Shown: positions 18,880 to 22,691 of the stretch, one piece after another
Position numbering within the stretch: position 1 is the first letter of the stretch
Layout of the letters: every line of letters begins with the position of its first letter
NCBI GenBank assembly: GCA_028818225.1
Contig: JAPPOG010000042.1
Coordinates: 1 to 64,000, forward strand
From: Gammaproteobacteria bacterium
GTDB taxonomy: Bacteria; Pseudomonadota; Gammaproteobacteria; Pseudomonadales; Pseudohongiellaceae
Direction of reading: 5' to 3'
DNA: 64,000 bases
Notes under the pieces: generated by a model
Seen by the model: the letters and a program-made list of their open reading frames with translations, nothing else
Database searches by the model: none
What the model was told of the DNA's origin: nothing
Translations under genes and position numbers: made by a program

Positions 18880-21147
18880 TCAGGGCTGCCAGGCGTAGGA
18901 GAATTTGGCGAAAAACGTGCGATTGGTGTATTCGAGGGAATTGTAGATGTCGTCTTCGAAGCCGGTATCGGAGTAGCCAATGAAGAAGCGCGTCGCCGCA
19001 TTTACCCGGTAGCTATAGAGTAGTTGTGTGCCGAGGTCACGAGTGCGGCTGTCTACCGGAAAAATATAATTGCTCTGGTTTCGTTCCCGATCTTCGTATT
19101 GCACTGTCAGGCGAATAAAGCTGCGGGCATCGAATTGATAGGTCGCCCTAATGTCGGTGAGATTTGCCGTAAACAAATGATCACCATTGGATTCAAAATT
19201 CTGGTATTGATGTCGAACGTCTAACAACAAGTGTCGACCAAATCGGTATCGAATTCGCGGACCCCAGCGTTCCGAATAACCCAAACGGGTATTGGCAAAG
19301 TCAACGACATCTTCGTAGCGAATCAGAGTGCTGAGAGTTAAATTAGGTGTCGGTGAGAATCCAATATTGATCATATTGAATTGCTCGTCGAAGTATTGCC
19401 CGTTCCAGTAAGTTTCACTGCCGCCGAACAATCCGTTTAGATAGGATTGCATGGGCCCATTCATGTTAAGAAAGAATTCTGTTTCTTCCTCTATTTGCAA
19501 TCCCGATTGATCTTCCGTGCGATCATAGTCTGCAGCAAAACGAATGCGGCTAAAGAAACCATCGCCATCCCAGCGCCAGGTATGCCCGATAGTCGCAACA
19601 ATATGTTTGAAGTCGACGCGATTGATGAAACCAAGATCCGCTCGAAAATCTTCACCCCAATCGTAGTAACCAATGCGCCAATCCCAATTCCGATCATTGT
19701 GTTGATACTCAATGACATGGCTGCTATCGCTAATACTGGATTCCTGTGCATACCGGTTTTGAACCATCAATGGATAATCTGATTCAGAGTGCATGCTTTG
19801 AATTGTAATGGTGTCGGAATCCGTAGGGCGCAAGGAGGCGTCGATACTTACTACGGAATTGCTGTAATCTCCGCCGCGCCTGTCAGTGACAAGTACACCG
19901 ATGGCCGAGTTGTCAAAAACATCCATGCGGTAGCGACCGATTGCTACCTTGCTGGTCATGTCCTCAAGAGATGCGATACGAGAACCTAAACTTCCCGGAA
20001 TGATAAAACTGGTAGTCTCATCGTTGGCGGCCAGTAAGCCATAAGTATGGTCGCCGGTTTTACCAGTGAGTTTCAGGCCATATTCCGGTGAGGCAATAGT
20101 TCTTGTATGAACCAGGTTTTCACGGGTATCGAAATAATCTGCACCATCGAGAAAAAATGTTCGACGCTCGGGAAAAAATAAGCTGAAAGTATTGTTTACA
20201 TCCAGTTGCGTACTATCTGCTTCCACTTGAGAAAAATCAGGATTCACTGTCGCGTTCAAATAAATGTCCTGGGTGATTCCCCAACGGATATCCATGCTCG
20301 CTTCAGGATCAAAGTCTTCTCGCTTCCAGTCACCTACTGCGGGATCTCGGTTCTCAATGGAGGAAGCCGTAACGGTTGGAATGATTTCCAGATTGCGGCC
20401 GGATTCAAGATTTTCAAATCCTTGTATTTTACTTATTTGGCACAGGTAACAGGAAACATCGCGATCCATTTCCTGGCTGCGTATCCTTGTCTCCCGGTCG
20501 CGGGGGTAGTGACGGCTTATATCGATTCCCCAGGTTTGAATCGATTCGCTCTCATCGAAGCGAAGTTGTTTTAGGGATATCGCAAGTTCAACGGTGTAGC
20601 CGGTATCGGTTATCTGGCCAACGCTGTCCCAGATTGCGTTCCAGGAAGAGTCTTCGCGACCGTTTACATCATCGTAGATTGCATCGATCTGGACACCCAA
20701 AGGATTAACGAAGAACTCAAAGGCCCGACGCTCGTCATTAAAGGTATCGAGGGTGATGCCAATCCAATCATCATTCCAGGCACTATCTCTATCCCGATAA
20801 ATCGCACGAATCTGGCTGGGATTGGGGTCCTCTGCTATGAATGCCACATAGAGCACCTCACCATCTTCCATTAACAGTGCTTCGGCAGAGACTTCAGCTT
20901 CGGCGTTATCGCCAGGGGCAATCTCGATGTTTACTGGTATCCGAGAGGCAGCGCTCCATTCGCCTGGTGCAAGCACACCATCGATCATGGGAGCCTCGGA
21001 TATGCGGGGAATAGAGAAGTCGACAACTGTTTGGCCAGTAGCCAGGGTAGAAATCAGTAGAAAAACTGATCCCAGATAACAACATACAAGGGAAGGGATA
21101 CTGCTCTTGGTAAACACGCGTTTACTCCGTTCTAAACCTCGACTCAA
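18880..21147 (-). CDS. DUF5916 / CBM9-like outer-membrane protein
   Basis: This 755-residue secreted protein starts with a hydrophobic signal segment (about residues 18-38, ending near LATGQ). A CBM9-like beta-sandwich follows: ISEAPMIDGVLAPGEWSAA, VLYVAFIAEDPNPSQIRA, DSAWNDDWIGITLDTFND. The rest (about residues 240-755) is rich in alternating aromatic strands, ends in KFSYAWQP, and looks like an outer-membrane beta-barrel as in DUF5916 proteins. Function is unknown; members often sit beside carbohydrate or peptide uptake genes, but none are here. A minus-strand terminator separates it from the upstream peroxiredoxin-like gene. Confidence 0.75.
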   Translation of the reverse strand: MSRGLERSKRVFTKSSIPSLVCCYLGSVFLLISTLATGQTVVDFSIPRISEAPMIDGVLAPGEWSAASRIPVNIEIAPGDNAEAEVSAEALLMEDGEVLYVAFIAEDPNPSQIRAIYRDRDSAWNDDWIGITLDTFNDERRAFEFFVNPLGVQIDAIYDDVNGREDSSWNAIWDSVGQITDTGYTVELAISLKQLRFDESESIQTWGIDISRHYPRDRETRIRSQEMDRDVSCYLCQISKIQGFENLESGRNLEIIPTVTASSIENRDPAVGDWKREDFDPEASMDIRWGITQDIYLNATVNPDFSQVEADSTQLDVNNTFSLFFPERRTFFLDGADYFDTRENLVHTRTIASPEYGLKLTGKTGDHTYGLLAANDETTSFIIPGSLGSRIASLEDMTSKVAIGRYRMDVFDNSAIGVLVTDRRGGDYSNSVVSIDASLRPTDSDTITIQSMHSESDYPLMVQNRYAQESSISDSSHVIEYQHNDRNWDWRIGYYDWGEDFRADLGFINRVDFKHIVATIGHTWRWDGDGFFSRIRFAADYDRTEDQSGLQIEEETEFFLNMNGPMQSYLNGLFGGSETYWNGQYFDEQFNMINIGFSPTPNLTLSTLIRYEDVVDFANTRLGYSERWGPRIRYRFGRHLLLDVRHQYQNFESNGDHLFTANLTDIRATYQFDARSFIRLTVQYEDRERNQSNYIFPVDSRTRDLGTQLLYSYRVNAATRFFIGYSDTGFEDDIYNSLEYTNRTFFAKFSYAWQP

Positions 21148-21274: not shown

Positions 21275-21859
21275 CTAGAGGTTTGACGCGGCTTCCATAA
21301 CGTTTTCGAAATCCGGTCGTAGTCGATAGCCTTCCTCAGCAAACTTGGCGCGAATTACTCCATCGGGGCTGATTAGAAAGATTCCAGGGTGGGGAACACC
21401 GTAAGCGCGAGAATCGGGCTCATAGTCTTCATTCAATATTCCCAAGGCATTCACATGGGTTATATCGGCGTCTCGCAAAAGTGTAAATTCGATGCCTTCA
21501 TCTTCTTCCACTGACTTTAAAATTTCAACGGAGTCGTAAGTCATCGCAGCGATGTTAACGCCCATTGCTTCAAATTGATTACTGATCTCGGTCAGCTGCA
21601 CGAGCTGATTCTTGCAGAATGGTCACCAGTCGAAAGAGCGGCTCAACATAAAGAGCAGGCCCTTTTCTCCAACAAGGTCTTCAAAAGTTTGAACCGTGCC
21701 ATTTTGATCTTGAGCTGAGATATCAATAATCGAGGAGCCCACTGGAAAATCTGGAGCCCACACATAATCCTGTGCATTCGACAGTTGAAATGCGTCAACA
21801 AAAATCAATACAAGTAATGCCTTGCCTAGCAGCACAATCCGTTGACGGAATAAGTGCAT
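21275..21859 (-). CDS. Peroxiredoxin-like (AhpC/TSA) protein with in-frame TGA, probable selenoprotein
   Basis: Reading through one TGA gives a 194-residue exported thioredoxin-fold protein. The ATG at 21859 is chosen because AAGAGG lies seven bases upstream. Residues 1-28 are a signal peptide (LLVLIFVDAFQLSNA). The body reads LLFMLSRSFDW-TGA-PFCKNQLVQL, where Cys-type relatives have DWCPFC, so the TGA (21623-21625, codon 79) falls exactly on the redox cysteine and gives a UxxC motif. After it come ITHVNALGILNEDYEPDSRAYGVPHPGIFLI, typical of the family, all in frame. A hairpin fitting the bacterial SECIS model follows. A Cys-to-stop mutation is the alternative. A strong terminator ends the unit. 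Confidence 0.8.
21592..21608 (-). other. Candidate bacterial SECIS hairpin
   Basis: In the mRNA, UCAGCU and AGCUGA form a 6-bp stem closing the 5-base loop CGUGC. The loop begins 23 bases after the U of the UGA codon and its second base is G. Both features agree with the bacterial SECIS model (apical loop roughly 16-37 bases downstream, G in the first two loop positions). The stem lies inside the coding sequence, as expected for bacteria. Confidence 0.6.
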
Positions 21860-21995: not shown

Positions 21996-22691
21996 TTAAT
22001 CGAGGCCCGATAAAAAGCGTTCACCCCTTGGCAAATAGCTATTCTCACTATCAAGTGAAAACACTACAGAGGAAGAACGACCAATAATTTCTTCCCGGGG
22101 AACGAAGCTGTAGGTTCTGCTGTCGGCGCTGTTATCCCGGTTGTCGCCCAGCACGAAATACTGGTCTGCAGGAACCACAGTCGGGCCATAGCTGCGACCT
22201 CTTCGATTCACAAAACCACGAGATAGCCTGGCCTGGTGTGTTTTTTCCGGTAGGTGCTCTTCGATGATCACCGAGGCCCCCTCTTGGAAAAGCACTTCGT
22301 AGTCGGCGGCAACCCCATTTATAACAAGAGCGTTGTTTTGCATGAAAATAGTGTCGCCAGGCACTCCCACAATGCGTTTAACCATTCGCTTGTCGGCTAC
22401 CTTGGAATCGATGATTACAATATCACCACGGATCGGATCCGAAACTTCCGCCAGTGAAATTTCAGTAAATGGAATTTTTACGTCATAGGCTAATTTGTTT
22501 ACCCAGACTTTATCGCCATCTAGAAGCGTAGGCAGCATTGATGCCCCGGAGATTGAACTCAGATCGGCGATGGCGCTCTTGAAGAAAACGATGCAAAACA
22601 AAAGGGCAAAGAACTGCCGATTTTCCTTCCAGAAGACCCGCAAATAACCTCGCATACGCTTGGGCAGTCTGTGATTCTCTAATTCGTCCAC
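21996..22691 (-). CDS. lepB: Signal peptidase I
   Basis: This 231-residue S26A serine protease cleaves signal peptides at the periplasmic face of the inner membrane. A membrane segment spans about residues 27-45. The nucleophile Ser51 is in SGASMLPTLLDGD, the general-base Lys in MVKRIVGVPGD near residue 107, and box E is VLGDNRDNSADSR. It is shorter than E. coli LepB (324) and not next to lepA or rnc, so it is probably a second, accessory-type signal peptidase. Confidence 0.88.
   Translation of the reverse strand: MDELENHRLPKRMRGYLRVFWKENRQFFALLFCIVFFKSAIADLSSISGASMLPTLLDGDKVWVNKLAYDVKIPFTEISLAEVSDPIRGDIVIIDSKVADKRMVKRIVGVPGDTIFMQNNALVINGVAADYEVLFQEGASVIIEEHLPEKTHQARLSRGFVNRRGRSYGPTVVPADQYFVLGDNRDNSADSRTYSFVPREEIIGRSSSVVFSLDSENSYLPRGERFLSGLD

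Follow-up and report, generated by a model that had tools for sequence, protein, structure and literature searches.

The window analysed here, a stretch of 64,000 nucleotides, belongs to a 3.47 Mb assembly of 89 contigs from a bacterium whose family is that of Pseudohongiella. On its minus strand, at 21859..21275, lies a gene that, on the strength of sequence comparison between genomes, very probably encodes a selenoprotein with selenocysteine (Sec) at the UGA of codon 79. Translated from the ATG at 21859-21857 to the TAG at 21277-21275, with its single in-frame TGA (21623..21625, minus strand) read as Sec, the unbroken frame specifies 194 residues of a probably exported AhpC/TSA-like UxxC oxidoreductase, an assignment based on translation, Pfam matches and orthologues. 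The active-site context is SFDWUPFC, in which Sec79 forms the motif U79-P-F-C82 together with the protein's single Cys, Cys82. Both the Pfam AhpC-TSA match (PF00578; 75.6 bits, cut-off 26, residues 40-171) and the Redoxin match (46.3 bits, cut-off 26.6) span the TGA. These results bear out the proposal of an earlier note on this DNA that two open frames joined by one TGA form a single AhpC/TSA-like protein, and that the frame continues across the stop to GVPHPGIFLI; the strand, which that note left unstated, is the minus strand. Mechanical ORF calling breaks the gene at residue 78 into ORFs of 88 and 108 residues, and standard annotation will therefore probably miss it.

A GAGG lies upstream of the ATG at 21859, and orthologues such as L140 and L143 begin at the matching Met. 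Read by eye, the N-terminus begins with charged residues and contains a hydrophobic stretch followed by SNA-Q, and residues 1-29 (21773..21859, minus strand) form a probable signal peptide with cleavage after SNA. The structure model described below places a helix at residues 3-23, with a pLDDT of about 60-70 there, and the N-termini of relatives are similar. The signal peptide that had been proposed is likely on this by-eye reading, and we hold with considerable confidence that the protein would be exported.

The upstream neighbour on the same strand (21996..22691, minus) is a signal peptidase I-like gene of the S26 family (Peptidase_S26, 131.8 bits, cut-off 22.9), and directly downstream, at 18880-21147 on the minus strand, lies a gene for a 755-residue DUF5916/CBM9-like protein. 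We surveyed the neighbours of 137 loci with flanks of 1.5 or 3 kb, in which absences mean little. An S26 signal peptidase gene adjoins 29 of the 31 genus loci; it may be no more than a neighbour of the selenoprotein gene. The DUF5916/CBM9-like gene recurs at a further 20 genus loci and at a single locus, L079, with a Cys codon in place of the TGA (a Cys locus). The gene lhr adjoins 21 of the 31 genus loci and seven Cys loci, and three of these seven, L062, L063 and L076, come from genomes named Pseudohongiella. Because lhr stands beside both versions, the Cys loci next to it are probably true orthologues.

A search of 293 genomes of the order (E <= 1e-20) gave matches in 28. Translation of 29 loci from this search, with the paralogue on contig C89 of the window's own genome excluded from the set, gave TGA at 17 (in 16 genomes) and Cys codons at 12, all at one column, so that Cys is the residue in 12 of 12 order homologues lacking the TGA. 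Of the loci with the TGA at this column, 14 lie outside the genus. Within the genus, the search matched 72 of 84 genomes and gave no hit in 12; five had the paralogue only, and the partial matches in G341 and G337 end short of the codon. Target-type orthologues spanning the codon occur in 65 genus genomes, and all 65 contain one TGA, the position of which was inspected in 31 of them; conservation of this kind across the genus argues against a read error. Both Cys relatives and TGA in close strains, which the earlier note had named as things to look for, were thus found. A class-wide search (369 genomes, E <= 1e-20) recovered the own genome and eight others, the latter all without an in-frame stop. 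Further Cys loci were collected with one Cys-codon pattern, by which only Cys versions were retrievable, as the best 80 of 270 relatives.

A tree of 55 chosen rows, comprising all 29 loci from the order together with 8 of the 28 additional genus loci and 18 of the set of 80 Cys loci, requires four changes between Sec and Cys, at least three of them on supported (starred) branches. That the two residues exchange at this column is shown by the alignment of the TGA and Cys loci. A second clade (L048, L055, L049-L051, L053, L054, L056, L057), in which the N-terminus resembles a membrane anchor by eye, is likewise divided, into two Sec and seven Cys versions. In the part of the frame beyond the TGA, comparison of the target with 26 genus orthologues gave totals of 529, 388 and 1533 changes at codon positions 1, 2 and 3, respectively, counted over up to 105 codons with no gaps allowed in 27 of the 31 genus loci (26 comparisons). 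The dominance of third-position changes indicates that the downstream half is translated and under purifying selection, and hence that the whole frame is coding.

Past the TGA lies a SECIS-like hairpin (21592..21608, minus strand) with a 6-bp stem and the loop CGUGC at 21598-21602, for which covariation and synonymous freezing provide the evidence. The stem starts 15 bases past the UGA and the NGUNN loop lies 20 nt from it; the earlier note had described the stem and loop correctly, and its starting point of 17 bases needed correction. According to a recent review (PMC13188914), bacterial SECIS elements have an apical loop of 3-9 nt, a stem of 4-16 bp, a distance of 16-37 nt from the UGA, a G within the first two loop positions and a minimum free energy of -7.5 kcal/mol or below. 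In loop size, stem length, loop G and distance from the UGA the target hairpin falls within this consensus, in agreement with the geometry previously claimed for it, and the energy of the hairpin alone, -6.0 kcal/mol, is weaker than the consensus value. When a 56-base stretch was folded alone it preferred a different hairpin (-8.9 kcal/mol; z 0.37, with a fold of equal or greater stability in 125 of 200 shuffles). Folding of the single sequence thus counts against the hairpin and would by itself have misled; the evidence in its favour comes from comparison.

Among the 17 Sec loci of the order, which as related sequences are not independent and from which the loop rule itself was derived, 99.0% of cells are paired, both sides change at three of the six pairs, and the covariation score is 0.500 against a shuffled mean of 0.191, with none of 500 shuffles reaching 0.500. 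Two of the five covariation measures were not above shuffles, namely the number of pairs with changes on both sides (250 of 500 shuffles as high) and that of further pair types (444 of 500). Slid versions of the hairpin pair at most 42.2% of cells in these loci, and RNAalifold recovers the same six pairs unprompted. One locus, L043, lacks the outermost pair, and the five inner pairs are intact in all 17, compared with 2 of the 12 Cys loci; the loop GU is likewise present in 17 of 17 Sec and 1 of 12 Cys loci. In the Cys loci 75.0% of cells are paired and the covariation score of 0.104, compared with 0.112 for shuffles, amounts to none. The 80 further Cys loci, some of which share a genome with one of the 12, include 12 that keep the five pairs and seven that have the GU, and none with both.

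Within the genus, the five hairpin codons of the 31 loci have a mean synonymous entropy of 0.16, compared with 1.32 for the 90 others, and are the lowest-entropy five-codon stretch. The five inner pairs are present in 29 of these loci (L147 and L159 break one), all six in 27 (L157 and L163 break the outermost) and the GU in all 31. Across the window, an NGUNN hairpin with at least four pairs occurs at 62 of 13,792 codons (0.45%).

The machinery for selenocysteine insertion is encoded in the same genome, where selA, selB, selC and selD, the genes that the earlier note had proposed searching for, all exceed their Rfam or NCBIfam cut-offs: tRNA-Sec scores 62.4 bits (cut-off 47, Rfam; ARAGORN calls it tRNA-SeC with anticodon TCA), selB 398.3 (cut-off 242.25), selA 581.5 (cut-off 267.9) and selD 281.2 (cut-off 125; the last three NCBIfam). 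With the Cys homologues and the TGA conservation described above, this means that none of the conditions which the earlier note had listed as refuting its reading was borne out. The selD sequence (L028, G000:C28:68968-69885) makes up the C-terminus of a fused 815-residue frame that carries a pyridine-nucleotide oxidoreductase domain ahead of it (TIGR03169, 425.2 bits, cut-off 310). The frame stays below the cut-off of TIGR04369 (490.6 against 700), whose name designates fusions that are related to SelD but distinct from it. Fusions of Ndh and SelD have been reported (PMC2398784).

In the order, selA is present in 39 of 293 genomes, including 16 of the 16 TGA genomes and 5 of the 12 Cys genomes, and in the genus it is present in 76 of 84. 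The main result against the selenoprotein reading is that 5 of the 65 genus genomes with the TGA (G296, G325, G332, G347 and G354) gave no selA match. Draft incompleteness is the likely cause, which fits the 79-92% completeness of these assemblies. Fragmented selA sequences occur in G328:C12 and G370:C4 through error, strain mixture or decay, and G370 also has a nearly full selA copy on C11.

Other accounts of the TGA must be weighed against these observations. Reassignment of UGA, or readthrough with another amino acid and no selenium, would agree with the purifying selection on the frame beyond the TGA, but TGA terminates 10 of the 32 mechanical ORFs of at least 250 residues in the window, which marks it as an ordinary stop that has not been reassigned, and the hairpin is absent from all ten. 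Cys in every order homologue without the TGA, and the presence of selA, selB, selD and tRNA-Sec, also count against this account, which we regard as very improbable. The existence of Cys homologues would suit an ordinary Cys gene that has acquired the TGA by nonsense mutation or through a sequencing error, yet the single TGA in all 65 genus orthologues, its recurrence at the same column in loci beyond the genus and the selection on the downstream half reduce the probability of such an event to a negligible level. The chances are equally slight that the locus encodes two separate proteins, the second beginning at the GTG at 21601: this codon follows soon after the TGA, within the 108-residue ORF, and all 31 genus loci have GTG there, but other Sec homologues include some with GTT, GTC or GGT, the Cys homologues are single proteins, and a thioredoxin fold minus its first strands would be unlikely to fold. 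Nonsense mutation, read error, codon reassignment and a split gene were rejected on the grounds of TGA conservation, selection and codon variation, which leaves translation of the UGA as Sec as the preferred reading.

We next consider the function of this putative selenoprotein. An AlphaFold2 model built from 54 sequences (the target and 53 from the set of 80 Cys loci), with Sec modelled as Cys, has a mean pLDDT of 90.2 and a pTM of 0.81. The best VIA-align matches are the peroxiredoxins Bcp4 (Z 23.4) and AhpE (Z 22.7), and Foldseek also places peroxiredoxins first, with ResA variants from rank 25. In a profile alignment to Aeropyrum PrxQ (2cx3), the Ser and the Cys of SxxC are matched by Sec79 and Cys82, respectively, and the Arg of KRAVF by Pro158; in a profile alignment to ResA, Sec79 and Cys82 both match CxxC. 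Pro158 is invariant in the 54 sequences and at least 90% conserved in 29. In peroxiredoxins, as described in PMC2757866, TxxC no longer has the N-terminal Cys of thioredoxins, and the place of the cis-Pro is occupied by an Arg. Sec79 thus corresponds to the N-terminal position of CxxC and the Thr/Ser of TxxC, which is not the resolving-Cys position to which the TGA had been assigned; the UxxC motif and the redox Cys of homologues at the exact position held up.

Comparison with known families gives a mixed picture. AhpE/Bcp-type peroxiredoxins have the same general fold (Z 22-23 over some 150 aligned residues) but have TxxC where the target has UxxC, with Sec three residues before the column of the peroxidatic Cys, and their Arg is replaced by Pro158 in the alignment to a PrxQ. 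The site of peroxiredoxins proper, TxxC or TxxU with the active-site Arg, was not found in the target, and the NCBIfam peroxiredoxin models all score below their cut-offs, the highest being PRK09437 at 40.7 of 140 bits. The CxxC of ResA, TlpA and DsbE aligns with the UxxC, and the position of Pro158 on the Arg column suggests that their cis-Pro position is kept. ResA is an exported protein. The target differs from ResA and DsbE in scoring below both NCBIfam cut-offs (29.4 of 170 and 21.5 of 123.15 bits), and a selenoprotein-linked model among the matches, the SelL-related redox protein NF040769, scores 39.8 bits against a cut-off of 120. Because Sec79 stands at the Thr/Ser of TxxC and Pro158 replaces the Arg, we lean toward a predicted ResA-like thiol:disulfide oxidoreductase rather than a peroxidase. 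A selenoprotein that is a true peroxidase, reducing hydroperoxides with a thiol donor and not disulfides, would be in keeping with the structural ranking of peroxiredoxins above other folds and with the AhpC-TSA match over its cut-off; this makes peroxidase activity possible, but the residues at the catalytic positions and the low PRK09437 score render it rather unlikely. The earlier description of the protein as peroxiredoxin-like was accurate for the AhpC/TSA domain and the fold, and the active site is more ResA-like.

The target belongs to a known selenoprotein type, "Prx-like UxxC", recognised since the first ocean metagenomes, and is probably the "Prx-like 1" of the Global Ocean Sampling (GOS) survey, to which we matched it by description. 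Membership in the type (PF00578; reference members such as WP_010940744.1) was assigned here by domain and motif, the target having an AhpC-TSA match of 75.6 bits together with U79-P-F-C82. With members of this type it shares AhpC-TSA, UxxC instead of TxxU, a bacterial-type SECIS and Cys homologues. The type is represented by 22 sequences from the Sargasso Sea (PMC1088965) and 225 from GOS (PMC2398784), in line with the earlier statement that Sec-containing Prx-like proteins are established from marine metagenomes, and the type also appears in reviews (PMC9312934, and a table in PMC13188914, 2026). The available portions of this literature contained nothing on export or on the bacterial family of the target. 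In the open-licence literature we found neither selenocysteine in Pseudohongiella or its family nor a periplasmic UxxC selenoprotein with a signal peptide.

The genome contains other candidates for Sec-containing redox proteins. Its 21 PF00578 matches include five with one TGA: the target, a TxxU peroxiredoxin with FTGGU (C73:41006), the target paralogue with SADWUPYC (C89:28160, minus strand; L003, G000:C89:28160-28624; about 406 residues), a WASWUGC protein (C22:37705; NF041054 243.7, under the cut-off of 300) and an HWUPYC protein (C73:68140; no NCBIfam match). A UGSC-family protein on C28 is the sixth UGA gene (NF041046 143.9, cut-off 125). The TxxU peroxiredoxin, WASWUGC, HWUPYC and UGSC genes are loci L002, L008, L009 and L170:3425-3955 of the own genome. 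The C-terminal tail of the C89 paralogue is DsbD_N-like (27.9 bits, cut-off 25), similar frames, likewise containing one TGA, turn up repeatedly in the genus, and it is possibly a new selenoprotein architecture. All six UGA genes can form a hairpin with a five-base NGUNN loop 17-22 bases past the UGA, with six pairs in five of them and four in the C22 gene; in the C89, HWUPYC and UGSC genes a three-base loop with one extra pair is stabler than the NGUNN form. Comparative testing was done on the target, and among the five other genes the C89 type was checked in the genus. Since the open scan covered only 98 kb and the window, six UGA redox genes is a minimum.

Together these comparisons suggest a mechanism in which we infer Sec insertion, export, redox chemistry and substrate. 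The ribosome would insert selenocysteine at UGA codon 79 via SelB and tRNA-Sec, guided by the hairpin that starts 15 bases past the UGA and its NGUNN loop. After export, the peroxiredoxin-type thioredoxin domain would work with Sec79 and Cys82 as its sole redox pair, its likely role being that of a periplasmic thiol:disulfide (or thiol-dependent) oxidoreductase. Sec79 would attack the substrate, Cys82 would resolve the intermediate as a selenenylsulfide, and a thiol donor would reduce the selenenylsulfide.

These findings point to a genus of Gammaproteobacteria in which six or more redox genes contain a UGA. The organisms richest in selenoproteins are predominantly anaerobic according to a review (PMC13188914), and this genus is probably aerobic. 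As a speculation to which we give little weight, the genus may run an exported Sec disulfide relay composed of the target, the C89 protein with its DsbD_N-like fusion and the exported Sec peroxiredoxin of C73, with a shared NGUNN SECIS; the target family may represent a surviving stage between thioredoxin-like oxidoreductases with CxxC and peroxiredoxins with TxxC, a peroxiredoxin scaffold in which the CxxC and the cis-proline position have been retained. The genus set, with its 65 TGA orthologues, covariation, synonymous freezing and Cys homologues beside lhr, represents a natural experiment in the exchange of Cys and Sec, and also bears on what SelB requires in the SECIS loop.
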